A stretch of 64,000 bases of DNA from Nocardioides luteus. GTDB lineage: Bacteria; Actinomycetota; Actinomycetes; Propionibacteriales; Nocardioidaceae. A program made the position numbers and the translations under genes. Under the pieces are notes generated by a model. The model worked only from the letters and a program-made list of their open reading frames with translations, did not search any database and was not told the DNA's origin. Shown one piece after another: positions 28,685 to 60,079 of this stretch. How positions within the stretch are numbered: the first letter of the stretch is position 1; every line of letters starts with the position of its first letter. The DNA lies in NCBI RefSeq assembly GCF_015752315.1, contig NZ_JADOVJ010000001.1, positions 5,138,501 to 5,202,500 of the forward strand, written 5' to 3'.

Positions 28685-28705
28685 GTTGCTTGTGTGCTGA
28701 AGAAC

Positions 28706-28999: not shown

Positions 29000-29029
29000 G
29001 ACAGTTCCCTTTCAGTCTGTTGCGTCGGG

Positions 29030-37543: not shown

Positions 37544-39750
37544 CCGATGGTTCCTCCCATGATGTTGTATCGACGCACGTCTTCGGGTGACGATTTCCAT
37601 GTCGCCAGCTCATGGCCCTGGAACGAGCCTTCCTTCGCTGCCAGAGCCACATAGAACGTGTACGGGCTGTCGCTGGTGTCCTGGGAGGCCGCGATCACGT
37701 CGGTCAGCCCGTCCCCGTTCACGTCGGCGAGAGTGACGGGATACCTGCTGGTGGTCTTGAGGGTGTTGCGGGGTTTGGGAAGCTTTCCGCGAGTGGCGAT
37801 CGAGAACTCGGCCAGGTCGTCGCTGAAGGTCCCGATCGTGATCGTCTGCCCCTCGCCCCGTCCGGACTCTCCGACGACGATCTCGTCCCGCCCGTCGCCA
37901 TCGACGTCGCCGGCGACGATCGAGCTGATCCCCTTGTGCTTGAAGGAGAACGACTTGGCCTCGGCGATGGTGGCCCCGTCTCCCTGGTAGAGGTCCAGCT
38001 CCGAGGTTCCGGTCGTGAGCGTCTTGTCCTCGGGCTCACCTGCGGCTCGGTTCAGCACCACCAGATCGGCTTTCTCGTCACCGGTGAACTCACCCACCAC
38101 GATCTGCTCCCTGGTGTCGGCCGGATAGGCCGCGAACTGCGTCGGCTCCGCAAACCCCGACCCGGTGCCGCGATAGACCCAGATGGCGCCGTCCCCGACG
38201 GTTCTGCCCTGTCTGTCGAGGTCCGGGTCCGGGTTGCCGAAGGTCGTGGCCATGAACAGGTCGGCGACACCGTCGCCGTCGAAATCGTCGGTGCCCAGGT
38301 CGTAGTAGAACGTCGACCCGGCCATCTTCTTGCCCTGCTCGACGACCCCCGCCGGCGCTTTGAGTGATCCCTCCAGGTCGCCGTGGAAGTTGAAGCCCTT
38401 CTCGCTCCGCACGAACGTGATCAGCGAGTTCTTCCCATCGCCGGTGAAGTCGGCGCAGAGCGGGAAGACCTCGCTCCCGTCGTTGTCCGCGGGGAGGGCG
38501 GGGTCGTCGTACGTGACGGCTTTCGACGGGGTCAGCGTGCGCCCGTCCGACTTCCAGGTGACCACGTCGACGCCCTTGCCGTCGGGGTTCTGGGTGTTGG
38601 TGACCACGTCCCCGAACTTGTCGCCGTTCACGTCCGCGTACGCAGCGCCCTTGACGGTCGGCACGATGGGCTCGGGGCCGTGCTCGACCCAGGGCTGGGT
38701 GATCGCCAGAGCTCCACCGACCCCGAGGGCGGCCACGCCGACCATCGCCGCACCGACCCGGAGCGGGGTGATCTTCGACGGCCGCGCGGCCTCCTCGATC
38801 AGGATGGCCTCGCTCTCGGACGGCGCCCGCACCGCCGCGACCAGGATCGGCAGTGGGTTCGGGTCGGTCATTGAGGGCGCCGGCACGATCTGTGCCGGGG
38901 CGGTGATCTCGCGCAGCTTCAGCAGGTCGTCCTTGAACACCGCGGCGCTCTGGTAGCGGTTGCGCCGGTCCTTCGCCATCGAGAGCTGCAGGATTCGGTT
39001 GGCTTCCCGGGTCCACTCGTCGGTGCCGACGAACTGCGGGATCGGCGCGTTCTGGTGCGCCATCGCCACCTGCACGGCCTCACCGGCGTACGGGATCCTG
39101 CCGGTCAGCGAGAACCACAGCATGCAGCCGGCGGCGTAGATGTCTCGCGACGGCTCCGGCATGATCGGGCGGCCCTGGGCGTCGCGCTCGTCGCGGATGT
39201 ACTCCGGTGCCAGGTAGTTCCACGTGCCTGTGATCCCGCCGGCCGGCGAGTCCGAGGACGACGTCGCGATCCCGAAGTCGCACAGGAACGCGAACGGGTC
39301 GAGAGGGCTCGCCGGGTTGCGTACGAGCACGTTCGACGGCTTGACGTCCTGGTGGATGATCCCCACCTGGTGGGCGTCGTGGAGCGCCCCCGCGACCTGC
39401 GCGTTGACCAGGCAGGCCAGGTGAGGAGCCAACGGCCCCTTCGAGCGTACGAGGCCGGACAGGTCGCCACCCTTGATGAACTGGGTGACGATGAACGGGC
39501 TGCCCTGCTGCTCGCCGATGTCGTAGATCGCGATGATGTGGGGCGACCTGATCTGCGCGAGGGTCTGGCCTTCTCGGATGAACATGTCGATGAACTGCCG
39601 GTCGGCGAGATGGGCGTGCACCATCTTCAGCGCGACCTGGCGTTCGAGCCTGGTGTCGAATGCGTCGTAAACGACGCCCATTCCACCTTCGCCGAGAATG
39701 CGGTCCAGGCGGTAGTGTCCGAACACTGCCCCGGGATGAAGCGTCGTCAT
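37540..39750 (-). CDS. Receptor-like Ser/Thr protein kinase with FG-GAP/VCBS ectodomain
   Basis: 736 residues. An intact PknB-type kinase domain starts at residue 13: LGEGGMGVVY, Lys42, IIHQDVKPSN (HQD, 133-135) and CDFG (158-160), then an activation segment GITGTWNYLAPEY. A juxtamembrane stretch leads to one TM (about 335-355) and an ectodomain with repeated DVNGDKFGD, DFTGDGK, DFDGDGVAD, DVDGDGRDE and DVNGDGLTD motifs, a seven-bladed integrin-alpha-like propeller by family pattern. Co-translated with the kinase downstream; the pair may heterodimerise. No adjacent phosphatase is seen. Confidence 0.92.
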   Translation of the reverse strand: MTTLHPGAVFGHYRLDRILGEGGMGVVYDAFDTRLERQVALKMVHAHLADRQFIDMFIREGQTLAQIRSPHIIAIYDIGEQQGSPFIVTQFIKGGDLSGLVRSKGPLAPHLACLVNAQVAGALHDAHQVGIIHQDVKPSNVLVRNPASPLDPFAFLCDFGIATSSSDSPAGGITGTWNYLAPEYIRDERDAQGRPIMPEPSRDIYAAGCMLWFSLTGRIPYAGEAVQVAMAHQNAPIPQFVGTDEWTREANRILQLSMAKDRRNRYQSAAVFKDDLLKLREITAPAQIVPAPSMTDPNPLPILVAAVRAPSESEAILIEEAARPSKITPLRVGAAMVGVAALGVGGALAITQPWVEHGPEPIVPTVKGAAYADVNGDKFGDVVTNTQNPDGKGVDVVTWKSDGRTLTPSKAVTYDDPALPADNDGSEVFPLCADFTGDGKNSLITFVRSEKGFNFHGDLEGSLKAPAGVVEQGKKMAGSTFYYDLGTDDFDGDGVADLFMATTFGNPDPDLDRQGRTVGDGAIWVYRGTGSGFAEPTQFAAYPADTREQIVVGEFTGDEKADLVVLNRAAGEPEDKTLTTGTSELDLYQGDGATIAEAKSFSFKHKGISSIVAGDVDGDGRDEIVVGESGRGEGQTITIGTFSDDLAEFSIATRGKLPKPRNTLKTTSRYPVTLADVNGDGLTDVIAASQDTSDSPYTFYVALAAKEGSFQGHELATWKSSPEDVRRYNIMGGTIG

Positions 39751-39807
39751 GCCCGCACCCTATGCAAGGGGCGACGGACCCAACCACTCAAAAAGTCGAA
39801 AAGTCCG

Positions 39808-41526
39808 CTACTTCTTGGTCGGCGCCCACTCGACGATGGTCGAGATGAGCGGCGCGACCTGACCGGACCGAGGTCGTACGCTGTCGACCTTCTTGTCGCT
39901 CACCGTCACCGTCGGGTTCATCACGATCGGCACCACGATCGAGTCCTGGACCAGCGTCTTCTCGATCTCGACGCGTACGTCGCGGGCCTCGTAGGGATCG
40001 GCGGTGCGGGCCAGCTCGCTGATGAGGCGGTCGCGTTCGCGGTCGCCGCCGCCGGTCGCGTTCTGGCTGCCCTTGCTGCCCCACTGCGCCGAGATCTCCT
40101 CCGGCGTCTGCGGGATCGGGATCCTGGCCAGGACGGCGTCCCACTTGTTGCCGGACATCACCTTGTCGGCCCCGGACGCACCACAGTCGGTGGTGGACCA
40201 GCCCTCGTCGTCGACGACGTTCGCGATGGTGTCGTAGGCGCCGGAGGCGAACGCGCTCGACTTGTCATAGGCGATGCACACCCGGGCGCCGCGCGGGGCC
40301 TTGGCGTCCTCGGAGGCTTTGAACTTCGTGGAGAACCCGGAGTCCTCGGTCGCGATCTGGTAGCCCTCACCACCCGGCGGGAACAGCACGACGTCGGTGG
40401 CTTCGTACGCCTCGGCCCACTCGCCCGCACCGCCCTCGGCGATGTCGCCACGCGGCACGGCACGGAGGTAGGCCGTGCGGGTCTCCTTGCGCTTGAACAG
40501 GCCGCGGTCGGTGCGGAGGATCAGCGCCCACATGGTGCCGTCGTTGGCCTCGGCGACGCCGTAGTCGCGACGCTCGAGGTCGCGCACCTGCTTCCGGTTG
40601 GCCTTGGTCGGGGTGACCTGGACGACGTCGACCTTCTCCCCGAGGCCGGACAGCGCGTCGGCGCTCGCCGGGGTGAGGCGTACCTGCTCGTAGGTCGGCC
40701 GGGCCTCGCCCGCGTACTCGGGGTTGGCCTCGAGGTCGACCTCCTGGCCGGTCTCGCCCGCCGCGATCTTCACGACCCGGTAGGGCCCGCTGGACAGCAG
40801 CGCCTCCTCGGACCCCGTGCCGTCCTCGGCGACCGTGAAGGCCGTCTTCCACGCCTCGGCGATCTTGGTCAGCTTCGCGGTGTCGGACTCCTCGATGGCG
40901 GTCTCGACGACCTCCTTGGCCTCGATCGGGTCCTCGATCTTCAGCGCCTTCTGCCCGACCACGTGCGCCGGGACGGCGACGTCCAGGGCCGTACGCCAGT
41001 CGACCACCGGCACCACCAGCGGCACCTCGATGGCCCGCGCGCCCTCGTCGACCTCGGGGATGTAGGCACTCTTGGTCAGCCCGGTCGGCACTCCGCCGAA
41101 GTCGACCTTGCCGTCGCTGCCCTTCTGGGCGGTGCCGAAGTAGCCCGACGTGGCCGCCCACGCGAGCATCAGGTCGGCCGTGTCGATCGGAACCCCGTCG
41201 GACCAGCTGGGCTCGGCCAGGTCGTAGCGCACCCGGGCCTGCTTGTCGCCCTCCATCGTGACCTTGCCGAACGTCTCGTCCATCTCGACCGTGTCGTCGA
41301 CGAGAGTGCCGAACGCGCCGCGGGTCAGCGAGGCGATGTCGAGGTTTCCGTCGGTCACGCTCGCGGCGCTCGCCGGGTTGGTGCTCGTCAGGGACCCTTG
41401 CCACGCCACCGCGACCTCGGTGCCCTCCTCCACCGACGCCGGCAGATCACCCGAGCAGGCGGTTGCGACGAGCGCGAGACTGGCAACGGAAACGAGCCCC
41501 ACGCGACGACGTGCCCCAGGATGCAC
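39808..41526 (-). CDS. Family 5 ABC solute-binding lipoprotein
   Basis: 572 residues. A lipoprotein signal MHPGARRRVG then a hydrophobic stretch ending VATAC (lipid Cys24) is followed by a peptide/nickel-binding (SBP_bac_5) fold: DLAEPSWSDGVPIDTADLMLAW (split at GVPID), SSGPYRV and a C-terminal IPIVMNPTVTV. Such proteins capture oligopeptides or similar solutes for an ABC importer, but no permease or ATPase gene is nearby, so it may act as a receptor or with a distant transporter. GTG 41526 with GAGAGGGGA upstream is chosen; an in-frame extension to 41628 lacks a signal peptide. Confidence 0.85.
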   Translation of the reverse strand: MHPGARRRVGLVSVASLALVATACSGDLPASVEEGTEVAVAWQGSLTSTNPASAASVTDGNLDIASLTRGAFGTLVDDTVEMDETFGKVTMEGDKQARVRYDLAEPSWSDGVPIDTADLMLAWAATSGYFGTAQKGSDGKVDFGGVPTGLTKSAYIPEVDEGARAIEVPLVVPVVDWRTALDVAVPAHVVGQKALKIEDPIEAKEVVETAIEESDTAKLTKIAEAWKTAFTVAEDGTGSEEALLSSGPYRVVKIAAGETGQEVDLEANPEYAGEARPTYEQVRLTPASADALSGLGEKVDVVQVTPTKANRKQVRDLERRDYGVAEANDGTMWALILRTDRGLFKRKETRTAYLRAVPRGDIAEGGAGEWAEAYEATDVVLFPPGGEGYQIATEDSGFSTKFKASEDAKAPRGARVCIAYDKSSAFASGAYDTIANVVDDEGWSTTDCGASGADKVMSGNKWDAVLARIPIPQTPEEISAQWGSKGSQNATGGGDRERDRLISELARTADPYEARDVRVEIEKTLVQDSIVVPIVMNPTVTVSDKKVDSVRPRSGQVAPLISTIVEWAPTKK

Positions 41527-41629
41527 CTTCAGTCCCCTCTCCGAGACAACGGACGCCCAGATCCTAACGAGCCGCGGCGGAGACCTGCCATCGACATAGC
41601 CGGTCTCCGCCGAACGGTCTGTGGTCACC

Positions 41630-42404: not shown

Positions 42405-43247
42405 TCAGCGAACCTGTTCGTCGCTCGCGTCGAACTCACGCCATCCGACGTGGCGATACTCCAGAACCCGCCGCCACTCCCGCTCGTCCAACCCGTCGAG
42501 CTCCGACCAGTAGCCCAGAGGCATCTCACGAAGCCGGATCTTGTCTCCTTCGTCCACCGTCACCAGCCGACGTTGGATGAGGATCTCCAGGAGCCTGTCG
42601 CGCGCCTTGCTCGCCCGCAACCGCTGGCTCGAACCTCGTGGCCCACGCGGCGGCGGCTTCCGGTTCTTCGCACCGCCCTCCGGCTTGGAGACCAGCTCGA
42701 GAACCAGACGTGCGGTTCCGAGAATCGCGGCGACGAGCGCCAACGCAGCCAGCCAGGCCATCTCAGGAAGATCGAGGATCAGGACCAAGACGTACGCCGC
42801 GCCCGCTCCGATCGCGGTGACAGCGGCGGTCGCCACCCCGTAGGCGCTTCGCCGACGCGTCCCCCACCACGTGGAGAGCTCCAGGCCGGCCATGATGATC
42901 GCGAGCCCGAAGGCGAGCCTGGCCAGCCACAGCAGCCCCTCCGCACCGGTGCTCTGCGCTGGGGCGAGCGCAACCAGAACGAGCCCGATCAAAGCGGCCC
43001 CGTAGAACGGGGCAGCGAGCAGAGCGAGGAAGCCCACGCCGACCAAGCCCACGAGCTTCAGCGCGAACATTCCCGGCAGCGGCGGATAGTCGCGATCGAG
43101 CACCGCGGCCTCCGCCTCCCCCCAGTTCAACGGCTGCGAGAACGGCGCCACGCGTGCCCAGCTGTCGACCGCCTCCCGAGCCCACACCTTCTCTGCTTCA
43201 TCGGTCTTGCGCGCCCACGCCGCGAGCACCTTCGGCACCTCGGCCAT
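42405..43247 (-). CDS. Four-TM protein with cytosolic winged-helix-like tail, unknown function
   Basis: 280 residues. A Trp/Ala-rich amphipathic N terminus (AWARKTDEAEKVWAREAV) precedes four or five hydrophobic helices (about 60-185). A basic linker (NRKPPPRGPRG) is followed by a C-terminal segment KARDRLLEILIQRRLVTVDEGDKIRL, which looks like a small helical domain. I do not recognise the family. It starts 3 bp after the stop of the lipoprotein gene upstream, so the two form an operon. A similar layout (four TMs plus helical tail) recurs at 45396. Confidence 0.65.
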   Translation of the reverse strand: MAEVPKVLAAWARKTDEAEKVWAREAVDSWARVAPFSQPLNWGEAEAAVLDRDYPPLPGMFALKLVGLVGVGFLALLAAPFYGAALIGLVLVALAPAQSTGAEGLLWLARLAFGLAIIMAGLELSTWWGTRRRSAYGVATAAVTAIGAGAAYVLVLILDLPEMAWLAALALVAAILGTARLVLELVSKPEGGAKNRKPPPRGPRGSSQRLRASKARDRLLEILIQRRLVTVDEGDKIRLREMPLGYWSELDGLDEREWRRVLEYRHVGWREFDASDEQVR

Positions 43248-44764: not shown

Positions 44765-45394
44765 CTATGCCCGCGGCGGCGACCAGCGAAGCGACGACGC
44801 GCACACGTCGAACGCCGTCTTCCAGCCGATGAACAACGGGTCTGTCGCCGACATCTCCGCGGGCCGCGCGACCGATGCCGTGAGCTGAAGACCGCGACGG
44901 TGCTTCGACCCAGGGATCGGTGTCACATAAACGATCGAGGTCATGACGATCGAGCCACCCTGGAGATCCTTCGTCGACTCTCGTTCGAAGCGGATGAACC
45001 GCTTGTCGCCGAAGAGCGGCTTGGCGTCGTACGCCTGGATCGCATGCGTCACGTATCCGTCGAGGCTCTCGCCGTTGGGCGCGCGCCGGATGGTGGCGAA
45101 CATGGAACCCGGGATGTAGACGTCGCCGGTTGGCGCCCCGGTCGGCGCGAAGTAGGCGATCACGTTCTGCTGCTTCATCAGGGAGAACGCCTGATCCATC
45201 TGCATCCGAAGGTGCGCGTGCAGATCGGGCCGGTTGGCCTCCATGCAGCGCCGCTTCATCTCGGCGTCGATCGCCTCCCGGTCGGAGGCGTCCGGAACGT
45301 GGCGCTCCCACCCGTCGAGGAGCTTCAGGTGGAACTCCGGGTCCTTGGGCGCACCCAGCATCTCCCTCAACGAGCCTGCGCCGTTCACAGACAT
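44765..45394 (-). CDS. Type VII cassette accessory protein, cassette A copy (paralogue of 50110)
   Basis: 209 residues, cytosolic, unknown family. It aligns along its length with the protein at 50110: both have LREMLG/LREALG, PEF-LKL-DGWERH/ARH, RRCMEA/QRCMEA, YFAPT/FFAPT, VVYLTPIPGSKHRR/TPIPGAKRRR and a final LRW/LQW. ATG 45394 lies one base after the stop of the upstream gene and matches the paralogue N terminus; GTG 45415 is an alternative. Because a copy ends each cassette, it may be a chaperone, secretion adaptor or immunity protein for the large cassette protein; that is inference. Confidence 0.75.
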   Translation of the reverse strand: MSVNGAGSLREMLGAPKDPEFHLKLLDGWERHVPDASDREAIDAEMKRRCMEANRPDLHAHLRMQMDQAFSLMKQQNVIAYFAPTGAPTGDVYIPGSMFATIRRAPNGESLDGYVTHAIQAYDAKPLFGDKRFIRFERESTKDLQGGSIVMTSIVYVTPIPGSKHRRGLQLTASVARPAEMSATDPLFIGWKTAFDVCASSLRWSPPRA

Positions 45395-45395
45395 C

Positions 45396-46121
45396 TCAAG
45401 CCTTTCCGTCAGCACTCGCAGTCAGAGGACTGCGGTCAAGTGCATCGAATTCGTCGTAGGACACGATGGAACGCGAGCGGAGCGTGGTCAGCGCTTGACG
45501 CCGCAGGGCGAGAAGGACGTCGAGCTCGTCCGACGTCAACGCGTTGACGTCGACCGCCGGCGGCTTCTCCTTCGAGTAGAGACGGAACTCCGCGACGATC
45601 ACCGCGATGCCGAGAACCAACAGCAACAGCGGTGCGATCACGAGGGGAACCCGGGGGTAGGCATCCGCGTCGCTCATGAAGATCAGGACCAGAAGCAGGA
45701 CGGTCGAGACCAGTACGAAGACCGAGAACCCGAACAGGGATCGGTCCCACTGCCGGTGAGTCGACCAGACCCACGGCACGAAGTGGTAGAGCAGGGCCAG
45801 GAATCCGAGCGCACAGCCGATGTAGACGCACGGAACCTCGAAACCCGGCGAGAAGTCTTCGGAGAGCTTCCTCGTGCCTCCGCCGCTGGCAAAGATCGCC
45901 ACGGAGAACAGCGGTCCCGCCAGACCGATGAGCGCGATCCAATACATCAACCTGGCAGCAAGGTTCGCCGCACCCGAGCGGCGACGCTTCCTCTCGGCTG
46001 CTTCCAGCTCGATCTGCGCGTAGTCCAGAACGACTCGATTCAGCTCGTTGATGTCGAAGCGATCGAAGTTGCTGTGCACCGTTGCCCAGTTACCCGGATC
46101 AATCGCTGCCGCCTTAGGCAT
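45396..46121 (-). CDS. Four-TM membrane protein of cassette A, unknown function
   Basis: 241 residues. An acidic/basic helical N terminus (INELNRVVLDYAQIELEAAERKRRR split at LDYAQ) is followed by four TM helices (about 60-80, 98-118, 127-150, 160-182) and a cytosolic helical tail (LTSDELDVLLALRRQ). ATG 46121 overlaps the upstream stop by 8 bp; a longer start at 46196 is possible. Present only in cassette A. Membrane position next to a candidate toxin makes an immunity role possible, but no family is recognised. Confidence 0.65.
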   Translation of the reverse strand: MPKAAAIDPGNWATVHSNFDRFDINELNRVVLDYAQIELEAAERKRRRSGAANLAARLMYWIALIGLAGPLFSVAIFASGGGTRKLSEDFSPGFEVPCVYIGCALGFLALLYHFVPWVWSTHRQWDRSLFGFSVFVLVSTVLLLVLIFMSDADAYPRVPLVIAPLLLLVLGIAVIVAEFRLYSKEKPPAVDVNALTSDELDVLLALRRQALTTLRSRSIVSYDEFDALDRSPLTASADGKA

Positions 46122-46746
46122 TGGAAAGGTGCTCCCATTCGTCAACGTGGTTTCGTGTGAGACCCGGAACCGGGTCGGCTTCGAAGGTCCGACCATCCGG
46201 GTCGATGAGTGAAAGGCTCGAGAGGATGATCGGCATCTGAGTGATCGTGAGCTGGAAGGCCAAGGGCAGGCCGGACTCCACGATCAGCCCCACGCCGCCG
46301 GAGGCGCCGCTGAAGGCGTACACCGCGGTGGACAGGTGTAGATCCCGTCCGTCGATGCTCTCGTCCCGCGATGCGATGCACTTGATACCCGGGCCGATCG
46401 CCGCACCGATGCACTCGTCGACGTCGAACCCGGACTTCTCCCAGGCCTGGACGTCGAGGTCACCGGCCTCCGCGAGGACGAGTCTGACCCGGCTGACGAT
46501 GGGGACAGTCATCGGCCAGTGAAGCATCGTGACCAGCCTGCCCGGCTCACCGATGGTGGCGAGAGAGTCCGTGAGGATGCGACGTACGTCCTCATCGGAC
46601 TGCCGGCTCGCGTTGGTCCCGAACCACTCCCGCACTCGGGCACACTCGGTCGACACCCACGCTTCGGCGCCCTGTCCCAGGTCACTGGGAACAAAGGTCC
46701 ATTCGCGTTGTGGGTGGATTCCTTCAGCCCGCCACGTTCCGACCAC
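46114..46746 (-). CDS. Cassette A accessory protein, likely paralogue of 50706
   Basis: 210 residues, no TM, no recognised family. Shared layout with the protein at 50706: an N-terminal Trp-rich region, a central helical part, MLHWPMTVPIVSRVRLVLAEA-like against VWPVLAPAAVMCHVDFVASE, a middle IGPGIKCIASR against LGPGLQYSTRR, and a C-terminal strand-helix TITQMPIILSSLSLIDPDGR. GTG 46746 has GGAGG 6 nt upstream. It sits directly downstream of the large cassette protein, so it may be its chaperone or antidote (inferred). Confidence 0.65.
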   Translation of the reverse strand: MVGTWRAEGIHPQREWTFVPSDLGQGAEAWVSTECARVREWFGTNASRQSDEDVRRILTDSLATIGEPGRLVTMLHWPMTVPIVSRVRLVLAEAGDLDVQAWEKSGFDVDECIGAAIGPGIKCIASRDESIDGRDLHLSTAVYAFSGASGGVGLIVESGLPLAFQLTITQMPIILSSLSLIDPDGRTFEADPVPGLTRNHVDEWEHLSNA

Positions 46747-46808
46747 GGTCGTCCTCCGATTTGATTACAAGCTCCTAGCAGCACACATCATGCATGGAGG
46801 TCGACCAC

Positions 46809-47900
46809 TCAGGCGAAGATGTCGACGGCCGAGTCGGGCAAGCCCTGGATCGTGTTCACCGTGCTGTAGAACGAGTTGGCCTGCTTCGCCAACGCACCCT
46901 GGATGTCACCGGCAGAGGCCCACATCTTGCTGTACGAGCTGATCCGCGTGAAGTCACCGACGTCGAGACCGGCGTGAAGACTGGTCATGATGTCCGGGAA
47001 GGCCTTGAGCTTGACGGCGTCTCCGACGCCACCCGCTGCCTTGTACCCAGCCGAGAACTTGGCGAACTTGGACGCGCCGGCGCCCAGATCAGTGATCGCA
47101 TCGGCCATCTTCCCGAACTTGCCGAACGGCACGACGTCGAGAACCGCAAGGCCGAGGTCGACGAGCGAACACTTTCCGGCACAGAACTGGATGGACTTCG
47201 CAAGAAGCACCAGAGCCGACACCGCCATCGCGATCGCCGCCAGCGGTCCCGCGATGAACAGGCTCGCCACGAAGAGCACCATCGCAACGATCTCCAGGAC
47301 GGCGATGATGTCGTCGAGGACCTCCCAGAAGCCGTCCTCGATCTTCCCAGACATCTCGTTACCGATGCCGCTGACGGCAGCGTCGTACGCGTCTTCCCAG
47401 GAGTCGTAGTAGCCGTCCCAGGTCTCGGCGGCGTTCTCCCAGTCCTTGCGGGCCTGTTCCTTGGCCTCGGCGGCGTCCTCCTCCTGCTGCGCTTCCGGGC
47501 TGCCTTCCTCCGGACCGGCGCCCGACGGGTGGTTCGGCGCACCTTCCATGCCGTCGTACTTGGCCCACAGGTCCTCGCAGGTGTCCACCTGCGACCTGAT
47601 CAGCGGCTGCCACTGCTGCAGCTCTTCGCCGTACTTCGCGATGATCGGTCCGACCGGTCGATAGAGCTGGCTGGCTTCGCGGAGCGTCTGGTGGGAATCC
47701 CCGATCTTCTCCTGCAGCTTCTCCACTGCCTTGCCGTCCATCTCGCCGTTGGCAAGATCGTGGGCGGCGATCATCGCCAGCTCATCGGCGCAGGAGCTCA
47801 TCATCTCGCCCAGTCGCTCGATGGCGTTCCCGCGCTCGATGATGCCGGAGGGGTTGCCCTCTACGGTCTTGATCTCTCTGCCCTTAGGGGACGAGTCCAT
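46809..47900 (-). CDS. Candidate type VII substrate with hydrophobic C-terminal half, cassette A
   Basis: 363 residues. The N-terminal half is a helical domain of T7SS-signal/LXG-like character (GREIKTVEGNPSGIIERG then LYRPVGPIIAKYGEEL), followed by an acidic linker. GFWEVLDDIIAVLEIV leads into two or three hydrophobic helices (about 190-250), a short VPFGKFGK turn and a helical C-terminal end. The N-terminal 220 residues are clearly homologous to the protein at 51436 while the C-terminal end differs, the pattern of polymorphic toxins. No known toxin motif is visible; a pore-forming or structural role is possible. Confidence 0.72.
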   Translation of the reverse strand: MDSSPKGREIKTVEGNPSGIIERGNAIERLGEMMSSCADELAMIAAHDLANGEMDGKAVEKLQEKIGDSHQTLREASQLYRPVGPIIAKYGEELQQWQPLIRSQVDTCEDLWAKYDGMEGAPNHPSGAGPEEGSPEAQQEEDAAEAKEQARKDWENAAETWDGYYDSWEDAYDAAVSGIGNEMSGKIEDGFWEVLDDIIAVLEIVAMVLFVASLFIAGPLAAIAMAVSALVLLAKSIQFCAGKCSLVDLGLAVLDVVPFGKFGKMADAITDLGAGASKFAKFSAGYKAAGGVGDAVKLKAFPDIMTSLHAGLDVGDFTRISSYSKMWASAGDIQGALAKQANSFYSTVNTIQGLPDSAVDIFA

Positions 47901-47947
47901 GGTCTGTGCGCTCCTAGGTCCGAGCCGGTGTGTCGTGGATACGCGTC

Positions 47948-48298
47948 TTAGACGGCGGAGCCCGAAGGAGCACCGCCGGATGCCCCGGGGGCTTGGATCG
48001 AAGTATTCGACTGGAACTGGAGGGCAGTCTCGCTGTCCCAGTTCTCGAAGCCGTCGACTACCCCTTTGACGTGCTCTTGGAGCTCCTTCAGGCTCTCCTT
48101 GAGTTCGTCACGCTTGTCATCCCAGCGCTCCTCGAAGTCCTGTGCCTTGTCACGAAGGTCGCTTCGGCCGTAGGGGTTGCCGATGTCGGCCTCCAGCTCT
48201 TCGGACTGGCTTTCCGCTTTCTCGAACTCGTTGACGATCGAGTCCAGCTGCGACGCGATCTTCGCGAGAGTATCGATCTTGATCCTGACGTCCGCCAC
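47948..48298 (-). CDS. Helical WXG100-like partner, cassette A
   Basis: 116 residues: two long charged helices with the turn GNPYGRSDLRDKAQDFEERWDDKRDEL and a Ser/Gly/Ala-rich end. It is about 60% identical by eye to the protein at 52676 (shared EELEADIG, DFEERWDDKRDELKESL). A true WXG is missing; Trp is in RWDDK. GTG 48298 is the start. Its place between the 95-residue WXG100-like gene and the large substrate matches the small Lap-type partners described upstream of LXG toxins. Confidence 0.78.
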   Translation of the reverse strand: MADVRIKIDTLAKIASQLDSIVNEFEKAESQSEELEADIGNPYGRSDLRDKAQDFEERWDDKRDELKESLKELQEHVKGVVDGFENWDSETALQFQSNTSIQAPGASGGAPSGSAV

Positions 48299-48358
48299 CG
48301 CACGTTCCCCTTCGATCTTCCGTCAATCTGCCCGGTCAAAGTGCCGAAATGCCGCCTC

Positions 48359-48391
48359 GGGCGGGGCGATCACTCGCGTGTCGCCCCGCCC
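48359..48391 (-). terminator. Hairpin after the cassette A 95-residue gene
   Basis: 11-bp GC-rich stem, arms 48359-48369 and 48381-48391, loop 11 nt, placed 15 nt after the stop of the 95-residue gene and before the partner gene. No U-tract; it may act as an attenuator or 3'-end stabiliser. Confidence 0.55.
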
Positions 48392-48406
48392 AATCAAGCG
48401 AATGGA

Positions 48407-48694
48407 TCAGCCGCCGGCGAGCTGGCTGTCCAGGTCCTGGATCGCCGTGGCCATGTCACGCAGAGCCTGCGCCATGTCCTCGACACCAGCAATGGCGTCC
48501 TTCAGACCCGTGGTCATCTCGGTGTAGCCGTCCTGGAACTTACCGGACGCCTTCTCCGTCTTGAACCCGTCCTGGACGAGCTCGTCGACGTAGCCCTGGC
48601 ACTCGTCAAGCGCGGACTCAATGGTGTCCTTGCCCTGGTCGAGCTTGTCGGCGGTGCCGGTCATCTCGTCGTATGTTGCCCCGAAGTCAGTCAT
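48407..48694 (-). CDS. WXG100-like protein, copy A
   Basis: 95 residues, two helices, no Trp. The usual WXG turn reads DGFKTEKASGKF, a variant seen in other actinobacterial WXG100 proteins, and there is one Cys (C32). It is identical in protein sequence to copy B (53120) and differs from copy C (53728) only at residue 2, although many codons differ. Probably secreted with, or as a targeting partner for, the large protein downstream. A conserved leader and promoter-like element lie upstream. Confidence 0.88.
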   Translation of the reverse strand: MTDFGATYDEMTGTADKLDQGKDTIESALDECQGYVDELVQDGFKTEKASGKFQDGYTEMTTGLKDAIAGVEDMAQALRDMATAIQDLDSQLAGG

Positions 48695-48776
48695 CGATCA
48701 TTGCCTTTCCCGCGATTTCATTGCACAGCGCCCGATCTCGGGACACCGTGGGTCACCGTAGTCACGCCGCACAGGC

Positions 48777-48803
48777 TTGTGAAGCGTAAAAACGAATCCG
48801 TTG
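48777..48803 (-). promoter_or_regulatory. Promoter-like element shared by 95-residue gene copies (A)
   Basis: TGTGAAGCGTAAAAAC and CCGTTG (plus-strand reading) match the element at 54098 over about 26 bp with roughly five differences and lie the same distance (about 83 bp) from the start codon. On the minus strand it reads GTTTTTACGCTTCACA, with TACGCT a fair -10 hexamer. Confidence 0.55.
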
Positions 48804-48945
48804 CGGCATCGGTTCAGAAGTTCACGTTCCGGCCTCCAACGGTGCCCGCAAGGCTACTGATACCACGTCAGACGGTCGTCGCTGGGTCGGCACCCTGCGC
48901 GTCCCACTTGGCCGGCGAGCGACTCGCATCCGACAGGGTGCGCGA

Positions 48946-49401
48946 TCAAAGGCCGTATACGGCCAGAAGATTGCCACCGAGCTCGATCTCCGGCTCCTGA
49001 TTCGGGTCGAGCCACGGAACCTGAGTCTTCTTCTTGAGGTAATGGTTAGTCACCGGCGACGCCGGCGCCGGAGCGCTACCGTCGAGCGCTGCTTGAACCG
49101 CTTCGACGAACTTCTTCAACGCTCGGTCGTTCATCGTTCCGTCCAAGAGCGCAGAAGGCGTTCGAGGGTCGGCACCGACCACGACGTGCATCTGTGAACC
49201 CGCACCGTCAGCGGTGACCCCGACGAGGACGAACTTCGGATTCGAGAACTTCGGCTTCTCGCGGACGACGAGCTTGCGTCCTTCATTGTGCACGGCCAAG
49301 ATCTGTCGGCCCTTCGCACCTTGAACTACGCCGACTGCAGCTTCGAAAACCTCACCGGCATCCCGCGACACTCGGATGGAAACCTCTTTAGCCTGACGCA
49401 C
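48946..49401 (-). CDS. Small protein of unknown function at the cassette A boundary
   Basis: 151 residues, predicted mixed alpha/beta, no TM. Segments such as GRQILAVHNEGRKLVVREKPKF, FVLVGVTADGAG and a C-terminal LKKKTQVPWLDPNQEPEIELGGNLLAVYG are well formed, but no family is recognised. GTG 49401 with GAGGTG upstream is preferred; a longer in-frame reading to 49605 crosses A/T-rich non-coding-like sequence. It faces the DUF3592 gene across 245 bp in which I see nothing certain. Confidence 0.6.
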   Translation of the reverse strand: MRQAKEVSIRVSRDAGEVFEAAVGVVQGAKGRQILAVHNEGRKLVVREKPKFSNPKFVLVGVTADGAGSQMHVVVGADPRTPSALLDGTMNDRALKKFVEAVQAALDGSAPAPASPVTNHYLKKKTQVPWLDPNQEPEIELGGNLLAVYGL

Positions 49402-49646
49402 CGTGCACCTCAATCTTTGAATGGATCGCAACCAATTAGAGAGCTTCCGCACCGCAATACAACCACTCGCGGAAGACATAGACGACAGGAAGATCAAACG
49501 ACCGCCAATGCACAACCGCGACGCACTGGCTGTCCACGGACGTCGCGTCGGTGTCCGTTCAGACTCCGAAGCCTCATGCCCATTCTCACCGGACTCTGAG
49601 CACACAGTATGATGTGCAGCCTCCGAAAACGTTGAGAGGGACAGTC

Positions 49647-50087
49647 ATGGATACGGGATCAGTCACCGCACTTGTCATCGGCATCGCACTGCTGATCGCG
49701 CCTGTTTGCATGGCAATACTTTGGATTCGCCGCAGTATGCGCCGGGCCAGTTGGACCCGGACCGAGGCAACGGTCCGTTTCGTGAGACGAATTAAGCGAA
49801 GCACATCCGCCACCAGTTCGGTCGAGGCTGAGAAGGTGACTCAGACTCAGTACACATATACCGATTCGCAGGGTCGCCAGCACCAAGGTGAGTCGGAAGT
49901 CTTGAAGAACCCTGAGGTAGGCGACGTGGTCGAGGCGCTGTACGACCCGAACAACCCGGGATCGAGCGAACTTGTCGGCCCCAACTCACTTCTGGTCAAT
50001 CTGCTGACCCGCGGCGCTGTGTTCATCGTTCTTGGAGCGTTGGGACTGTTCCTGGTCATCGCCGCCCTGGACGTCGTTTCAGTCTGA
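49647..50087 (+). CDS. DUF3592 membrane protein
   Basis: 146 residues: TM1 (about 6-28), a cytosolic or extracytoplasmic beta domain with TQYTYTDSQGRQHQGESE and VEALYDPNNPGSSEL, typical of DUF3592, and TM2 (about 118-142). SD GAGAGGGA precedes ATG 49647. The only plus-strand gene between the two cassettes; codon use and base composition are visibly more A/T-rich than the core chromosome. Function unknown. Confidence 0.75.
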   Translation: MDTGSVTALVIGIALLIAPVCMAILWIRRSMRRASWTRTEATVRFVRRIKRSTSATSSVEAEKVTQTQYTYTDSQGRQHQGESEVLKNPEVGDVVEALYDPNNPGSSELVGPNSLLVNLLTRGAVFIVLGALGLFLVIAALDVVSV

Positions 50088-50109
50088 GTTCGCAATGATC
50101 CGTCACGTA

Positions 50110-50709
50110 TCAGCGCCACTGCAGCGTTGAGACACAGGCATCGAACAGCAGTCGCACGGAGTTGATCGACTCCGAGTCAGCGTCGATATCAGGAGTCCTG
50201 GCGAAACCAGCCACCAGTGAAAGTGCGCGCCTTCGTTTGGCCCCCGGGATCGGGGTGAGATAAACGACGGAATGGTTGATGACAATCTCAGTCCCGACCC
50301 GGGTCGTCTTCTCCTTCTCCACCCGCAGGGTCCGATGATCGCCCAGTAGCGGCGTCGCCCCGTGGTCGCGAATAAGGGTTCGGACCAAGTTGTCGAGCGT
50401 CTGGCCCGGTTCGCCGCTCCGGATGGAGGCATTGATCGACGACGGGATCGCCAGAGTCCCATCACCAGGAGTCGTCGGAGCGAAGAAGGCAAAGACACCA
50501 CCCTTACGCATCGACGCGAAGGCGGCCTCGAGTTGACCCTTCACCTCTGCGTACAGGTGGACGGCGTGCGCCTCCATGCACCGCTGCTTTGCGGCAGCGA
50601 GCATCGCTTCGAGCGAAGCGTCGTCCACGCCGTGACGCGCCCAGCCATCAGGTAGTTCGAGCTCGAACTCGGGCACGACGGGCACGCCCAATGCTTCCCG
50701 CAAGTTCAT
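50110..50709 (-). CDS. Type VII cassette accessory protein, cassette B copy (paralogue of 44765)
   Basis: 199 residues, cytosolic, homologous end to end with the protein at 44765 (shared LREALG, CMEA, FFAPT, LTPIPGAKRRR, final LQW). ATG 50709 overlaps the upstream stop by 4 bp, so it is translated with the protein at 50706. Last gene of cassette B. Conservation in both cassettes argues for a general rather than toxin-specific role, such as chaperone or secretion adaptor; this is inferred. Confidence 0.78.
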   Translation of the reverse strand: MNLREALGVPVVPEFELELPDGWARHGVDDASLEAMLAAAKQRCMEAHAVHLYAEVKGQLEAAFASMRKGGVFAFFAPTTPGDGTLAIPSSINASIRSGEPGQTLDNLVRTLIRDHGATPLLGDHRTLRVEKEKTTRVGTEIVINHSVVYLTPIPGAKRRRALSLVAGFARTPDIDADSESINSVRLLFDACVSTLQWR

Positions 50710-51356
50710 GACACCCCACCATCAGAGAGCACCCACTGCTCTTCGCGAACGTAGTCCGGCACCACCGTCGAGGTGAACGGCGTGCCGTCAGCCTTGACCA
50801 CCTGCAATGCATCCTTCAGCCGGGTGAATCCGACCACCGCGTGCGCAATGAGCGTCGAGATGGACTCTTCCAAAGTCAGCATCAGTGCCACTTCGCCATC
50901 GTCGAAGACGAAGTGAACCGAGCTCAGATCGATCGGAGCCTCAGGGCCGTCGACCTGCCGGCGCGTCGAGTACTGAAGGCCGGGGCCGAGATATCGCGCG
51001 TCAGCCGCGTGAATCACTCCGTCGAGATCTCTCCAGTTTGGAAGGTCTTCGCTTGCCACGAAGTCGACGTGACACATCACTGCTGCAGGAGCGAGGACGG
51101 GCCAAACCTGATACATCGCATATGACGCCGACGTGGCGCGAGCAGCGAGACCCTCGGCGAGCACGGACCGAACCATTGTCTCGGTGCCACGAGCCTCGGT
51201 TGCCGGACCTGAGCCGATGACACCCCACAGAAGCTCTGTGGCCGAGTGCAGCCACAATTCCTGCTCGTCGCGTGCGAGCCCCTCCGGGAGGAAGAGCCAA
51301 CCGGGCAGGTCGACATCCTCACCAAATCCTAGTGACCATCCCTCGAGCGAACTCAA
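50706..51356 (-). CDS. Cassette B accessory protein, likely paralogue of 46114
   Basis: 216 residues, no TM. The TTG at 51356 with AGGAAGGGG 8 nt upstream is the best start visible. Contains LPGWLFLPEGLARDEQELW at the N terminus, VWPVLAPAAVMCHVDFVAS in the middle and a helical strand pattern close to that of the protein at 46114. Coupled to 50110 by a 4-bp overlap. Function unknown. Confidence 0.68.
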   Translation of the reverse strand: MSSLEGWSLGFGEDVDLPGWLFLPEGLARDEQELWLHSATELLWGVIGSGPATEARGTETMVRSVLAEGLAARATSASYAMYQVWPVLAPAAVMCHVDFVASEDLPNWRDLDGVIHAADARYLGPGLQYSTRRQVDGPEAPIDLSSVHFVFDDGEVALMLTLEESISTLIAHAVVGFTRLKDALQVVKADGTPFTSTVVPDYVREEQWVLSDGGVS

Positions 51357-51435
51357 GATCGGGTCCCCTTCCTATTGTTCGTACGCACGGGTCCCTTGGC
51401 GATCGCCTTAGAGCCCGCTACGTATGACGACCCCA

Positions 51436-52653
51436 CTAGATGAACGCTCCGACAGGACCCGGAATGCTGATGTCGACTCCGCCGCTGCTGCTGATCGCCG
51501 TCGCCACGCTGCCGTAGTGACTGCTGAACGCGCCGACCCTGCTCGCCACAGAGTCGACTTTGGAGAGGTTACGCACCATCCCCAGGCCCGACTCCAGAGC
51601 TGAGCGGTTGCCGATGTAGAGGCCGATGTTTCCCTTGCGGATCGACTTGACGCCCTGACCAAGCAGCTTCTCACCGATCTCGGACTTGGTGAGGAGCCGG
51701 ATCGGCTTGTTGTAGTTTTTCGCCAGCTCACGCAGCGGACCACCGCCCGTGGCTTTCCATGTGCGACTGATCGCGTTCATCATTCCACCCGCCTTGGCGA
51801 GCTTGGGAAACTGCGCGAACTTCGTCAGACTCGTGATCTTTCCGACGGGGAAAATCGCTAGTCCTGCCAGCAAGAGTTCGAGTCCGGAGGCCTTGCCATT
51901 GAGGTATTTGATGCCGGTCAGCAAGAAGGCAGCAATCGCCAAGCCGACTGCGAGCGCGACGATCCACCCGCCACAGAAGAGAGCTACCACGCCGACGATA
52001 AGCGCAGCCCAGCTGAGGATCTCGGTGAGAACCTCGATGACGTCGCCCCAGTTGTCCCAAAATCCATCTTCGATGGAGCCGGAAAGGCCGTCTGAGATAC
52101 CCGTGACCGCTTCGTCGAACGCGTCCTCCCAAACGCCGTACCAGGTGTCGAACTGCTCAGCCTCATCTTCCCAGGCTTCGTACGCTTCCTTCTTGGCCTT
52201 GTTCTCGGCGGCCTCTTCCTTGTCTGTGTCGCCGATGCCCAGAAGACCACCGTCGTCCTCGGTGGTGCTGTCGTCCTTGTCTCCCGGAAGGCTCTCGTAT
52301 GTAGCCCAGAGGTCGCTGCAGTTCCGCGCCGTGCTGTCGATCTGCGGCTTGTAGGTCTCCAGCATCTCGCCGTACTTCACCAGCACGGGGCCCACAGGCT
52401 TGTAGAGGTCAGCCGCCTCTTCGAGAGTCTTATAGGATTCACCAATGGTTTCCTGAAGCTTCTCGATCGCCTTTCCCTCTTGCTGACCACCAGCGAAACT
52501 GTTTTCCTTGATGCTCCGCAGCGTGTCGGCCGAGGTGTCCATCATCTTGCCGAGGCGCTCGATCTCCTTGCCTCGCTCGATGATCCCGGACGGAGTTCCC
52601 TCGACCGTCTTGATCTCGCGCCCCCTAGGGGAATCCGGCATGCCACCGAACAT
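51436..52653 (-). CDS. Candidate type VII substrate with hydrophobic C-terminal half, cassette B
   Basis: 405 residues. N-terminal helical T7SS-signal-like domain (GREIKTVEGTPSGIIERG; LYKPVGPVLVKYGEML), acidic linker (TTEDDGGLLGIGDTDKEEAA), then GFWDNWGDVIEVLTEIL and several hydrophobic helices (about 210-290), a FPVGKI turn and a basic C-terminal domain (about 310-405) unlike that of the cassette A protein. The split between a conserved front and a variable end is typical of polymorphic secreted toxins, but no catalytic motif is recognised. ATG 52653 has AAAGGAAG upstream. Confidence 0.72.
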   Translation of the reverse strand: MFGGMPDSPRGREIKTVEGTPSGIIERGKEIERLGKMMDTSADTLRSIKENSFAGGQQEGKAIEKLQETIGESYKTLEEAADLYKPVGPVLVKYGEMLETYKPQIDSTARNCSDLWATYESLPGDKDDSTTEDDGGLLGIGDTDKEEAAENKAKKEAYEAWEDEAEQFDTWYGVWEDAFDEAVTGISDGLSGSIEDGFWDNWGDVIEVLTEILSWAALIVGVVALFCGGWIVALAVGLAIAAFLLTGIKYLNGKASGLELLLAGLAIFPVGKITSLTKFAQFPKLAKAGGMMNAISRTWKATGGGPLRELAKNYNKPIRLLTKSEIGEKLLGQGVKSIRKGNIGLYIGNRSALESGLGMVRNLSKVDSVASRVGAFSSHYGSVATAISSSGGVDISIPGPVGAFI

Positions 52654-52675
52654 ATGCTCTTCCTTTCACCAGCGC

Positions 52676-52996
52676 TTACGACGCGGGTCGGGCAACTTCT
52701 CTCTTGGGCTCGAACTGCAGCGCAGTTTCGCTGTCCCAGTTCTCGATCCCGTCGATGACGCCTTTGATGTGCTCGCTGACCTTCTTCAGGCTCTCTTTGA
52801 GCTCATCGCGCTTGTCATCCCAGCGCTCTTCGAACTCACAGGCCTTGTCCCGCAGTTCGCTTCTATCGAACGGGTCGCCGATGTCAGCCTCGAGGTCTTC
52901 GGAGCTACTCGTGGCGTTCTCGAACTCCTGGACAATCGAGTCCAATGAGGTCCTGACCGTCTCCAGCTCGGAGATCTTGATCAAAATGTCCGCCAT
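52676..52996 (-). CDS. Helical WXG100-like partner, cassette B
   Basis: 106 residues, the counterpart of the protein at 47948: shared LDSIV-EFE, EDLEADIGDPFDRSELRDKA, EFEERWDDKRDELKESL and ENWDSETALQF. The C-terminal tails differ (Lys/Arg/Pro here). ATG 52996 with AAAGGTG 6 nt upstream is preferred over a start three codons earlier. It lies 22 bp before the large substrate gene, so co-translation and complex formation are likely. Confidence 0.8.
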   Translation of the reverse strand: MADILIKISELETVRTSLDSIVQEFENATSSSEDLEADIGDPFDRSELRDKACEFEERWDDKRDELKESLKKVSEHIKGVIDGIENWDSETALQFEPKREVARPAS

Positions 52997-53071
52997 GGCA
53001 CGCACCTTTCACGTGGTTACAGAAGCGCGCCAGCGGGGGTCGTCACCGTAGGCGCGTGACCGAGAATGGAG

Positions 53072-53103
53072 GATGGTGGGCCGGCAGACGCCAGCCCACC
53101 ATC
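53072..53103 (-). terminator. Hairpin after the cassette B 95-residue gene
   Basis: 14-bp stem with one mismatch, arms 53072-53085 and 53090-53103, loop AGAC. Nearly the same sequence as the hairpin after copy C (53680-53711), so it was duplicated with the gene. Confidence 0.6.
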
Positions 53104-53119
53104 CGACAAGCGTTGTGAC

Positions 53120-53407
53120 TCAGCCGCCGGCGAGCTGCGAGTCCAGGTCCTGGATCGCCGTGGCCATGTCACGCAGGGCCTGCGCCATGTCCTCGACGCC
53201 AGCGATGGCGTCCTTGAGGCCCGTGGTCATCTCGGTGTAGCCGTCCTGGAACTTGCCCGACGCCTTCTCCGTCTTGAACCCGTCCTGGACGAGCTCGTCC
53301 ACGTAGCCCTGGCACTCATCGAGGGCGGACTCGATCGTGTCCTTGCCCTGGTCGAGCTTGTCGGCAGTGCCGGTCATCTCGTCGTAGGTTGCCCCGAAGT
53401 CAGTCAT
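53120..53407 (-). CDS. WXG100-like protein, copy B
   Basis: 95 residues, protein identical to copy A (48407) with many synonymous codon changes. FKT-ASG replaces WXG; one Cys at 32. First gene of cassette B. Its leader (GGAAAGGC before the ATG) is shared with the other copies. Confidence 0.88.
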   Translation of the reverse strand: MTDFGATYDEMTGTADKLDQGKDTIESALDECQGYVDELVQDGFKTEKASGKFQDGYTEMTTGLKDAIAGVEDMAQALRDMATAIQDLDSQLAGG

Positions 53408-53679: not shown

Positions 53680-53711
53680 GATGGTGGGCCGGCGTAGGCC
53701 GGCCCACCATC
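53680..53711 (-). terminator. Hairpin after WXG100-like copy C
   Basis: Perfect 14-bp stem, arms 53680-53693 and 53698-53711, loop GTAG, about 16 nt after the stop of copy C. No U-tract. Confidence 0.65.
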
Positions 53712-54097: not shown

Positions 54098-54123
54098 TGT
54101 GAAGGGTAAAAACACCTTCGTTG
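54098..54123 (-). promoter_or_regulatory. Promoter-like element shared by 95-residue gene copies (C)
   Basis: TGTGAAGGGTAAAAAC then TTCGTTG (plus-strand reading), the counterpart of the element at 48777, again about 83 bp before the start codon. Similarity continues on the far side (TGAACYTCTG on the minus strand). It overlaps the region just before the EssC-like gene stop at 54142. Confidence 0.55.
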
Positions 54124-58711: not shown

Positions 58712-60079
58712 TCACCCGCGTCGCACCAGGGCGGAGCGGTCGCCGAACCGGATCATCGCGCCGACGGGGGCCAGCACCGGCTCCCAGGCCTTCAGCCGGC
58801 GGGTGGCACCCTCGTGGATCACCACGGTGCCGTTGGTCGAGCCGCGGTCGGTGACCTCGACACCGTCACCGCTGGGCCGCAGCGAGAGGTGGGTCTTCGA
58901 GACCGACACGTCGATGATCGAGACCGTACGCGCCCCGAGCGTGTTCTCCGTCAAGGCGGGGTCACGACCGACCAGCACCAGGCCGGACACCGGGATCCGC
59001 TCGCCGGAGTCGACCTTGAGCATGATGCCGCGCGACTGTGCCGCGGGCTGGTGGGCGCCGGTGGTGGACGCCGGAGCCGGAGTCGGCGTCGGGGTCGGGG
59101 GCGGGGTCGGCGCGGGAGTCGGGATCGGCGCCGCCGTAGGGGCGGGCGCCGGAGTCGGGTGCGGAGTCGGGGCAGGCGTCGGGGTCGGGGGCGGCGGGGG
59201 CACGGTCTGGCCCTGGTTGGGCACCACACCGCGCGAGGGCGGGATCGACGGCATCACCGGCTTCGGCGCCACCGGTCCCGACGGCGGGGTCGCGAGCGCA
59301 CCACCTGGGGAGGCACCGGGCTCCTCGCGCTTCGCCTTCGGACGGGACACCCCGAGCACGCCGGCGCTGACCCGCCCCGCGGGACGGTAGCTGCCGGCGT
59401 CGTGGTCGTTGGGCGTGCTGAGCGAGGGCAGCGACTTCCGCTCCGCGACGGGCGCGGCCGCGACCGTCTTGCGGGCGATGCGCATCCGCTTCTCGTCGTA
59501 GGGGTCGAGACCTTCGCGGACGTCGACCATCCAGGTCTCGGCGACCTTGTCGTGCCAGCCGCGGCCACGGTTCTCCTTGTCGAGCAGCGGCGAGGCGAGG
59601 AAGACGATCGGCGCGATCGGGACGATGCCGGACCCCCAGAGCACGAGAGCCCTGAGGAACGCGCGGCCGACGCCGGGGCGCTCGAGCGTCTTGACGTTGA
59701 CCGATCGGACGCCGGCCATGGACTTGCCCAGCGTGACGCCGCGGCGGCCGTGGAAGACGATCTGGACGATGACGAAGATCAGCGACAGCAGCACGGTCGC
59801 GCCACCCGCGATCGCGGCCAGCGTGATGTCGGGGTGGCTCAGGAACCGGGCGAAGCCGAACTTTCCCTGGGCCAGCTTGAGCAGCAGCGGAAGGGTGAAG
59901 ACGAGATACGGCACCTGGAGGACCAGGTAGCAGACGATGTCGACGGCCGCGGCGGCCGCCCGACGGCCCAGGGGCGCGTCCTTCAGCCCGAGCGAGGCAG
60001 CGTAGGCCGGGTCCGGTTTTCCGTCGGCGGTGAGACCTTCGATCCGGTCGTCATTTTCGGCGACCTCCCATATCTCCAC
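58712..60079 (-). CDS. RDD-FHA membrane protein
   Basis: 455 residues. An RDD membrane domain (about 35-200; three or four TMs, with GRRGVTLGKSMAGVRSV) is followed by a basic linker, a very long Pro/Thr/Ala-rich stretch (about 260-345) and a C-terminal FHA domain (LVLVGRDP, SVSKTHLSLR, DRGSTNGTVV). GTG 60079 with GAGGAG 9 nt upstream; an in-phase ATG at 60071 is out of frame. It lies 64 bp upstream of the EssC-like gene, so the two FHA proteins probably form an operon and respond to the same phosphorylated partner. Confidence 0.88.
   Translation of the reverse strand: MEIWEVAENDDRIEGLTADGKPDPAYAASLGLKDAPLGRRAAAAAVDIVCYLVLQVPYLVFTLPLLLKLAQGKFGFARFLSHPDITLAAIAGGATVLLSLIFVIVQIVFHGRRGVTLGKSMAGVRSVNVKTLERPGVGRAFLRALVLWGSGIVPIAPIVFLASPLLDKENRGRGWHDKVAETWMVDVREGLDPYDEKRMRIARKTVAAAPVAERKSLPSLSTPNDHDAGSYRPAGRVSAGVLGVSRPKAKREEPGASPGGALATPPSGPVAPKPVMPSIPPSRGVVPNQGQTVPPPPPTPTPAPTPHPTPAPAPTAAPIPTPAPTPPPTPTPTPAPASTTGAHQPAAQSRGIMLKVDSGERIPVSGLVLVGRDPALTENTLGARTVSIIDVSVSKTHLSLRPSGDGVEVTDRGSTNGTVVIHEGATRRLKAWEPVLAPVGAMIRFGDRSALVRRG

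Follow-up and report, generated by a model that had tools for sequence, protein, structure and literature searches.

A 64-kb stretch of the Nocardioides luteus genome, itself a single contig of 5.82 Mb, carries two cassettes that each code for a WXG100 protein, a helical partner, a large protein and two accessory proteins. We refer to this stretch as the window, to its right and left cassettes as B and C, to a third one outside it as D and to the accessories as acc1 and acc2; the cassette genes of the window are all minus-strand open reading frames (ORFs). The question raised by the locus is what two accessories do beside a presumed substrate of a type VII secretion system (T7SS). We propose that each cassette codes for a type VII effector together with its handling set, in which acc1 and acc2 would serve as payload chaperones, and give this reading a probability of about 0.58. 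The evidence for it lies in gene content, conservation, linkage, the predicted fold of acc2 (tentatively also of acc1) and the covariation of both with the payload part of the large protein.

The two cassettes and a third copy

The original prediction had described two paralogous cassettes with one gene order, and both the ORFs at this place and an all-against-all BLASTP comparison of the cassette proteins bore it out. Between right and left, the partners were 65% identical (E 2e-50), the acc2 proteins 42% (E 1e-53) and the large proteins 46% (E 2e-77) up to about residue 290, the end of the local alignment, in agreement with the conserved front and variable end that had been predicted. The acc1 proteins gave 22% identity when compared directly (E 0.08). 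A third cassette, found by an acc2 search at ~778 kb of the same genome, codes for partner, large protein, acc1 and acc2 in unchanged order, and its acc1 is 40% identical to that of the left cassette (E 1e-49) and 30% to that of the right (E 4e-9). Since this copy bridges both, we conclude that the acc1 pair of the window is also related, as had been claimed.

The genes that had been listed were all present, but a protein with four transmembrane (TM) segments (4-TM protein) between the left accessories had been missed; likewise, WXG100 copy A and an ATPase gene lie just beyond the span originally assigned, and the third cassette is in another part of the genome. In the 16 kb read around the third cassette we detected neither a WXG100 nor a 4-TM gene. 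Near it (L004, 12802-14142; L-numbers denote loci fetched and read, G-numbers genomes sampled) we observed a WXG100_2 protein and a second protein that narrowly missed the Tox-REase-5 cut-off. The former recurs in L013-L015 and the latter, in its full length, in L014 alone, which is what an exchangeable toxin end should show.

The assignment as type VII substrate cassettes, in which a WXG100 protein and a Lap-like partner accompany the large protein and two accessory families recur, also held. WXG100 copy A scored 49.5 bits against PF06013, where the cut-off is 27.3 (E 5.4e-13, 95 aa), and is therefore a member of the WXG100 family. At E 0.001 there are three copies of this 95-aa protein in the genome, all in this region, and any two of them differ by 16-22 synonymous versus 0-1 nonsynonymous codons; with divergence almost purely synonymous, selection on the protein is visible.

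The variable C-terminal end of the large proteins is ~70-130 residues long and has no known enzymatic domain in Pfam, and neither large protein of the window matched LXG in Pfam at E 1. We therefore dropped the idea that they are LXG or enzymatic polymorphic toxins, the end being short and without a domain match. A constant front, a variable end and multiple paralogues are the pattern of polymorphic effectors.

Distribution of acc2 and the effectors beside it

The prediction that the accessories recur beside WXG100 genes was followed in 149 genomes of the family and 345 of the class. A scan with the acc2 alignment returned 17 loci in Microbacterium, Ruania, Nocardioides and Agrococcus, and the nearest named relatives of acc2 and the large protein come from Nocardioides. 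Within the family, acc2 was found in two genomes, the same two that have a strong match to the large protein (E < 1e-100), with weak large matches in 15 more. In the class, the large protein matched strongly (E < 1e-39) in nine genomes and weakly in 24, and acc2 was present in eight, every one among the nine; when the locus of the ninth, G258, was read (L040), it held a diverged acc2 (E 9e-14). The accessories co-occur with WXG100 genes in other genomes, too, and the condition set to refute the prediction did not hold. Many of the weak large matches span the central hydrophobic part alone; among these 15 and 24 genomes, inspection covered G006, which is in both lists, and G128, one of the 15, around its ATPase (L051).

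In all we compared 36 cassettes with a strong large protein, of which 20 had been selected by acc2 (and are circular for that gene), three are from the genome itself and 13 were selected by the large protein (G141 by both routes). The partner and acc2 were present in 36/36, counting a split acc2 in L020, and acc1 in 26/36 (one partial); a WXG100 gene lay no more than 1.3 kb upstream in 22/36 and a 4-TM gene downstream in 20/36. Each of the 13 found through the large protein had acc2 within 1.8 kb, its start lying 0.1-1.7 kb behind the large gene. With a broader profile, five of the ten cassettes lacking acc1 gave an acc1-like match (independent E < 1e-3, with L039 and L041 themselves in that profile), two gave weak ones (E 0.003 and 0.02) and three none; independent E-values were used because conditional ones are too lenient. 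The split acc2 of L020 (7004-7598), in a complete Microbacterium genome, runs over three frames through decay or a sequencing error.

We also read seven loci of 18-19 kb around related, more distant FHA-ATPases. One, L045, has a diverged large protein and an acc2-like gene (E 6e-9). In the six without a large protein no acc1 or acc2 match was found at E 0.01; a WXG100 gene is present in three of them (none in L049-L051), and L046 and L047 carry a WXG100_2-like effector frame (recognised by eye, the Pfam match to PF25547 being that of a protein from the source genome). That acc2 follows the machine and not the effector was rejected on the strength of these six loci.

A second type of putative T7SS effector, in L010, L012, L017, L039 and L040, has a partner-like gene, hydrophobic segments and an end bearing GxSxG (by eye). 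Its front is a distant match to the large-protein profile (E 4e-6 to 5e-11), and its end gave sub-threshold matches to Abhydrolase_2 and PGAP1 in L040 and L012 and no hydrolase-fold match in L010. An acc2-like gene lies downstream in four of the five, the contig of L017 ending there; it was recognised by profile in L012 (E 6e-7) and L039 (E 0.008) and by eye from an LPxxW-like motif in L010 and L040. Together with that of L045, these four proteins matched the acc2 profile at E 1.6e-11 (probability 97%), as against E 0.01 (4%) for acc1 and 0.23-0.67 for the large, 4-TM and partner profiles.

It can be seen from the maximum 19-residue hydropathy that effectors with TM-like segments lie beside acc2: the value was at least 2.47 in 36/36 cassettes, 20 of them selected by acc2 (range 2.47-3.26), 2.64-3.66 in the hydrolase-like effectors (n=4) and 2.16 in L045. 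WXG100_2-type proteins without accessories of their own reached 1.60-1.87 (n=3: L046, L047 and one on the opposite strand 2 kb from the third cassette). The numbers are small and all point in one direction.

These comparisons bear on whether the cassettes are toxin loci at all, since the machine might instead export the large proteins for a structural or signalling purpose, with the accessories helping in its assembly. We consider this very improbable: although the variable end has no known enzymatic domain and neither machine nor 4-TM genes came to light alongside the third cassette, the polymorphic pattern and the front distantly common to a hydrolase-like effector argue otherwise, as do weak matches of the central hydrophobic part to stretches within frames as long as 3,919 codons from other families of the class. 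That part is perhaps a widespread effector membrane domain.

Predicted fold, covariation and a proposed mechanism

By sequence the accessories are, as predicted, of no known family. There was no convincing Pfam or NCBIfam match; PDB-sequence profile searches and Pfam scans of 22 diverse acc2 and 21 acc1 members gave isolated weak matches only; none of these members matched DUF1795 (Pfam, E 0.05); neither they nor the window accessories matched DUF5085 in Pfam; and plasmid records held no match to right-cassette acc1. By predicted fold the claim fails. The model of right-cassette acc2 (predicted local distance difference test, pLDDT, 86.7) resembles LpqN, Mog1p, PsbP and the Eag chaperones EagT6 and SciW of the type VI secretion system (T6SS), from which acc2 is predicted to have a Mog1p/PsbP-like fold; the model of third-cassette acc1 tentatively suggests the same. 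Profile searches from the accessories did not reach the sequence of 3lyd, a protein of Jonesia denitrificans. The acc1 and acc2 profiles matched each other with broad alignments (E 5.5e-5, probability 66%) and showed no relation with narrow ones. In a crude hydropathy scan the four accessories of the window showed no hydrophobic segment and so no obvious signal peptide, which fits a cytosolic location.

To follow covariation, pairwise distances were compared in 19 dereplicated cassettes with the large protein split into front (N), hydrophobic part (T) and end (C); 12 of the 36 were left out for want of a full-length acc1 or acc2 profile match, and L009, L012, L013, L014 and L021 as near-duplicates. 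The partner tracked N once T and C were controlled (partial r 0.64), and acc1 tracked acc2 (0.84). Given partner and N, acc1 and acc2 went with T (0.62 and 0.60) and with C (0.58 and 0.55), at a permutation p of 0.0005, whereas given T and C their links to N or the partner were 0.02-0.17 (p 0.05-0.42). An earlier run of 20 cassettes that included the 41-residue acc2 fragment of L020 gave links to N of 0.18 (p 0.04) and 0.24 (p 0.01), and across the runs holding this fragment the accessory link to partner or front was up to 0.25; in Nocardioides only (10 cassettes, fragment absent) the contrast between payload and front was stronger. The 4-TM protein (16 cassettes, fragment in) went with T and C at 0.68 and 0.69 given partner and N, and with N at 0.35 given partner. 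Between the two cassettes of L007, identity is 72% for N but 34% for T and 14% for C, with acc1 at 19% and acc2 at 41%. We conclude from the covariation that a cassette consists of an export module and a payload module, with both accessories in the latter.

Such a pattern speaks against acc1 and acc2 acting like EspG or EsaE, that is, as targeting chaperones that would bind the tip of the partner-substrate helical bundle and direct it to the ATPase. Like the accessories, these two established T7SS chaperones are globular and have their genes with those of substrates or systems (PMC11217815, PMC10653861); EspG and EsaE are, however, tied to the helical targeting bundle, whereas accessory distances barely track partner or front once the payload is controlled. 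EspG was absent among the structural matches listed for the acc1 and acc2 models, which does not exclude an EspG fold. We regard this alternative as unlikely.

Several points weigh against the chaperone reading. Relatedness inflates covariation tests, gene order and recombination inside the large gene could alone give the covariation, and covariation is co-inheritance, not contact. There is also a live rival, in which acc1, acc2 or both would confer immunity in the cytosol by neutralising the variable end, as in the Lap-LXG-immunity scheme to which the original prediction likened the locus. We think it improbable, if less so than the EspG-like alternative, because acc2 is fairly conserved (45% mean identity), its family accompanies two different C-terminal ends, the accessories covary with the hydrophobic part at least as strongly as with the end, and the separate 4-TM family is the better immunity candidate. 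Of that likeness the Lap-like partner stands; LXG does not, and in appearance the accessories are closer to payload chaperones than to immunity proteins of the classical kind.

In the scheme that we infer, which extends to binding, chaperone action, secretion, toxicity and immunity, each cassette would supply an FHA-EccC type VII machine with a single effector and its handling set. The partner and the helical front of the large protein would pair to give the export signal, and the shared WXG100 protein would be a component of the secretion core. The hydrophobic hairpin and short variable end of the large protein may insert into membranes, and acc1 and acc2, probably as a pair in the cytosol, would keep the hydrophobic segment in a soluble, harmless state up to export by the ATPase. 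Against effector arriving from neighbours, the likely immunity protein would be the 4-TM protein, a counterpart of ExiC/ExiD-type membrane immunity. The chaperone reading, which we find the most economical, is analogous to that of Eag chaperones, which hold effector hydrophobic segments in T6SS (PMC7773334), and of ExiA/ExiB, which hold EsxX of the S. aureus T7SS, with ExiC/ExiD as membrane immunity proteins (reported in 2025; PMC12744356). By the same analogy, a double role of the accessories in chaperoning and immunity, as for ExiB, is possible.

Genomic surroundings and known systems

The features are collected in Table 1. From right to left on the minus strand, the genes for an RDD-FHA protein, the FHA-ATPase, WXG100 copies A and B, partner, large protein, acc1 and acc2 are followed, beyond a plus-strand DUF3592 gene and one other, by those for WXG100 copy C, partner, large protein, acc1, 4-TM protein and acc2, and then by a lipoprotein-like gene (by eye) and a second 4-TM gene, homologues of which adjoin acc2 in L005, L007, L008 and L009. 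The two genes between the cassettes, a DUF3592 gene and an overlapping one of unknown family (48946-50087), have a third-position GC of 0.65-0.66, low for the window.

Table 1. Features of the cassettes and their surroundings, in window coordinates
Feature	Position	Strand	Basis
RDD + FHA membrane protein adjoining ATPase	58712..60079	-	RDD 2e-15, FHA 3e-7
EccC/EssC-type T7SS ATPase, N-terminal FHA, 1501 aa	54142..58647	-	FtsK_SpoIIIE E 6e-57, FHA E 5e-14
15-base element TTTTTACSCTTCACA before WXG100 copy A	54098..54112	-	
WXG100 copy A, 95 aa	53728..54015	-	PF06013 E 5e-13
Hairpin 3' of copy A, terminator- or attenuator-like	53680..53711	-	14-nt perfect inverted repeat, 4-nt loop
WXG100 copy B, 95 aa, right cassette	53120..53407	-	99-100% identity to copies A, C
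Second hairpin, 3' of copy B	53071-53104		
Helical partner, 106 aa, right cassette	52676..52996	-	65% identity to left partner
Large substrate, 405 aa, right cassette: helical front, hydrophobic hairpin, variable end	51436..52653	-	BLASTP, alignment, hydropathy
acc1, 216 aa, right cassette	50706..51356	-	Linked via third-cassette copy; fold tentative, from third-cassette acc1 model
acc2, 199 aa, right cassette; start overlaps acc1 stop by 4 nt	50110..50709	-	Own structure model
Second copy of the element, before WXG100 copy C	48778-48792		
WXG100 copy C, left cassette	48407..48694	-	Protein identical to copy B, 16 synonymous codon differences
Helical partner, 116 aa, left cassette	47948..48298	-	BLASTP
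Large substrate, 363 aa, left cassette	46809..47900	-	BLASTP, alignment
acc1, 210 aa, left cassette	46114..46746	-	40% identity to third-cassette acc1
4-TM membrane protein between left acc1 and acc2	45396..46196, likely start 46121 (from L018 comparison)	-	4 hydrophobic segments
acc2, 216 aa, left cassette	44765..45415	-	42% identity to right acc2, E 1e-53
Second 4-TM protein, same family	42405..43247	-	Member of 4-TM profile by construction
EccC-like ATPase of ESX-4-like set	31062-35099		

Both cassettes lie directly downstream of the FHA-containing EccC/EssC-type ATPase gene, an adjacency that suggests an FHA-EccC type VII machine as their exporter. An ATPase homologue was found in 16/27 other cassette loci, several of which are on short contigs, with RDD-FHA homologues upstream of it in L035, L037, L040, L041 and L044. 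The 15-base element occurs twice as against 0 expected in 100 shuffles and stands in the same place in L007, L018 and L021 (51 loci scanned; two more with the element are stretches of the source genome); it is possibly a shared promoter or operator.

A separate set at 24617-35099, which we would call ESX-4-like, has two EccD-like proteins (one below cut-off), two WXG100 genes and a subtilase, so that two type VII machines lie within ~35 kb. Beside a gene for a family-5 solute-binding protein, which recurs in eight cassette loci, the region at 35180-41628 codes for two Ser/Thr kinases that have FG-GAP repeats. In gene content the locus resembles T7SSd of Actinomycetota (PMC11217815) in its FHA-containing ATPase, WXG100 proteins and Ser/Thr kinases, the kinase genes being 14-19 kb from the ATPase gene. 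It differs in the RDD-FHA protein and the FG-GAP repeats of the kinases.

Known systems offer partial likenesses. The large proteins share with LXG toxins and their Lap partners (PMC11217815) a helical front, small helical partners and a variable end, but differ in the missing LXG match and the short end without a known toxin domain. With the Eag chaperones EagT6 and SciW (DUF1795; PMC7773334, PMC12881460) the accessories share the predicted fold, in the case of acc2, a gene adjoining an effector with TM-like segments, and a family common to different effector ends. Eag proteins, however, serve type VI and not type VII, form one homodimer in place of two accessories, and hold a hydrophobic segment that is N-terminal, before PAAR; here the segment is central, Pfam gave no PAAR match in the cassette effectors, which T7SS-type genes adjoin, and no DUF1795 match was obtained. 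The ExiA/ExiB-EsxX-ExiC/ExiD locus (PMC12744356) likewise combines a membrane-seeking substrate, a soluble pair and polytopic membrane proteins, but ExiA/ExiB are DUF5085 proteins of GyrI/SHS2 fold, in another phylum and with another machine, whereas another fold is predicted here. In the open literature (titles and abstract starts, with most subscription papers outside) we found no Mog1p/PsbP-fold or DUF1795 protein tied to type VII secretion. PMC13285283 has both terms, with Eag assigned in its excerpts to T6SS alone; 'type VII' does not occur in the Eag papers PMC7773334 and PMC12881460, nor LpqN or Nocardioid in PMC11217815.

How a T7SS exports proteins with TM-like segments without their inserting in the producer's own membrane is, in our view, little understood. 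If the accessories are chaperones, they would be a second, structurally different answer besides ExiA/ExiB (PMC12744356), in Actinomycetota and using a fold that T6SS employs for this problem, and acc2 would be a gene marker for hydrophobic type VII effectors. More tentatively, and with somewhat less than even confidence, actinobacterial type VII secretion may have its own paired Mog1p/PsbP-fold chaperones, acc2 being general and acc1 a fast-evolving, effector-specific partner, with the Eag fold serving the same task in an unrelated machine.

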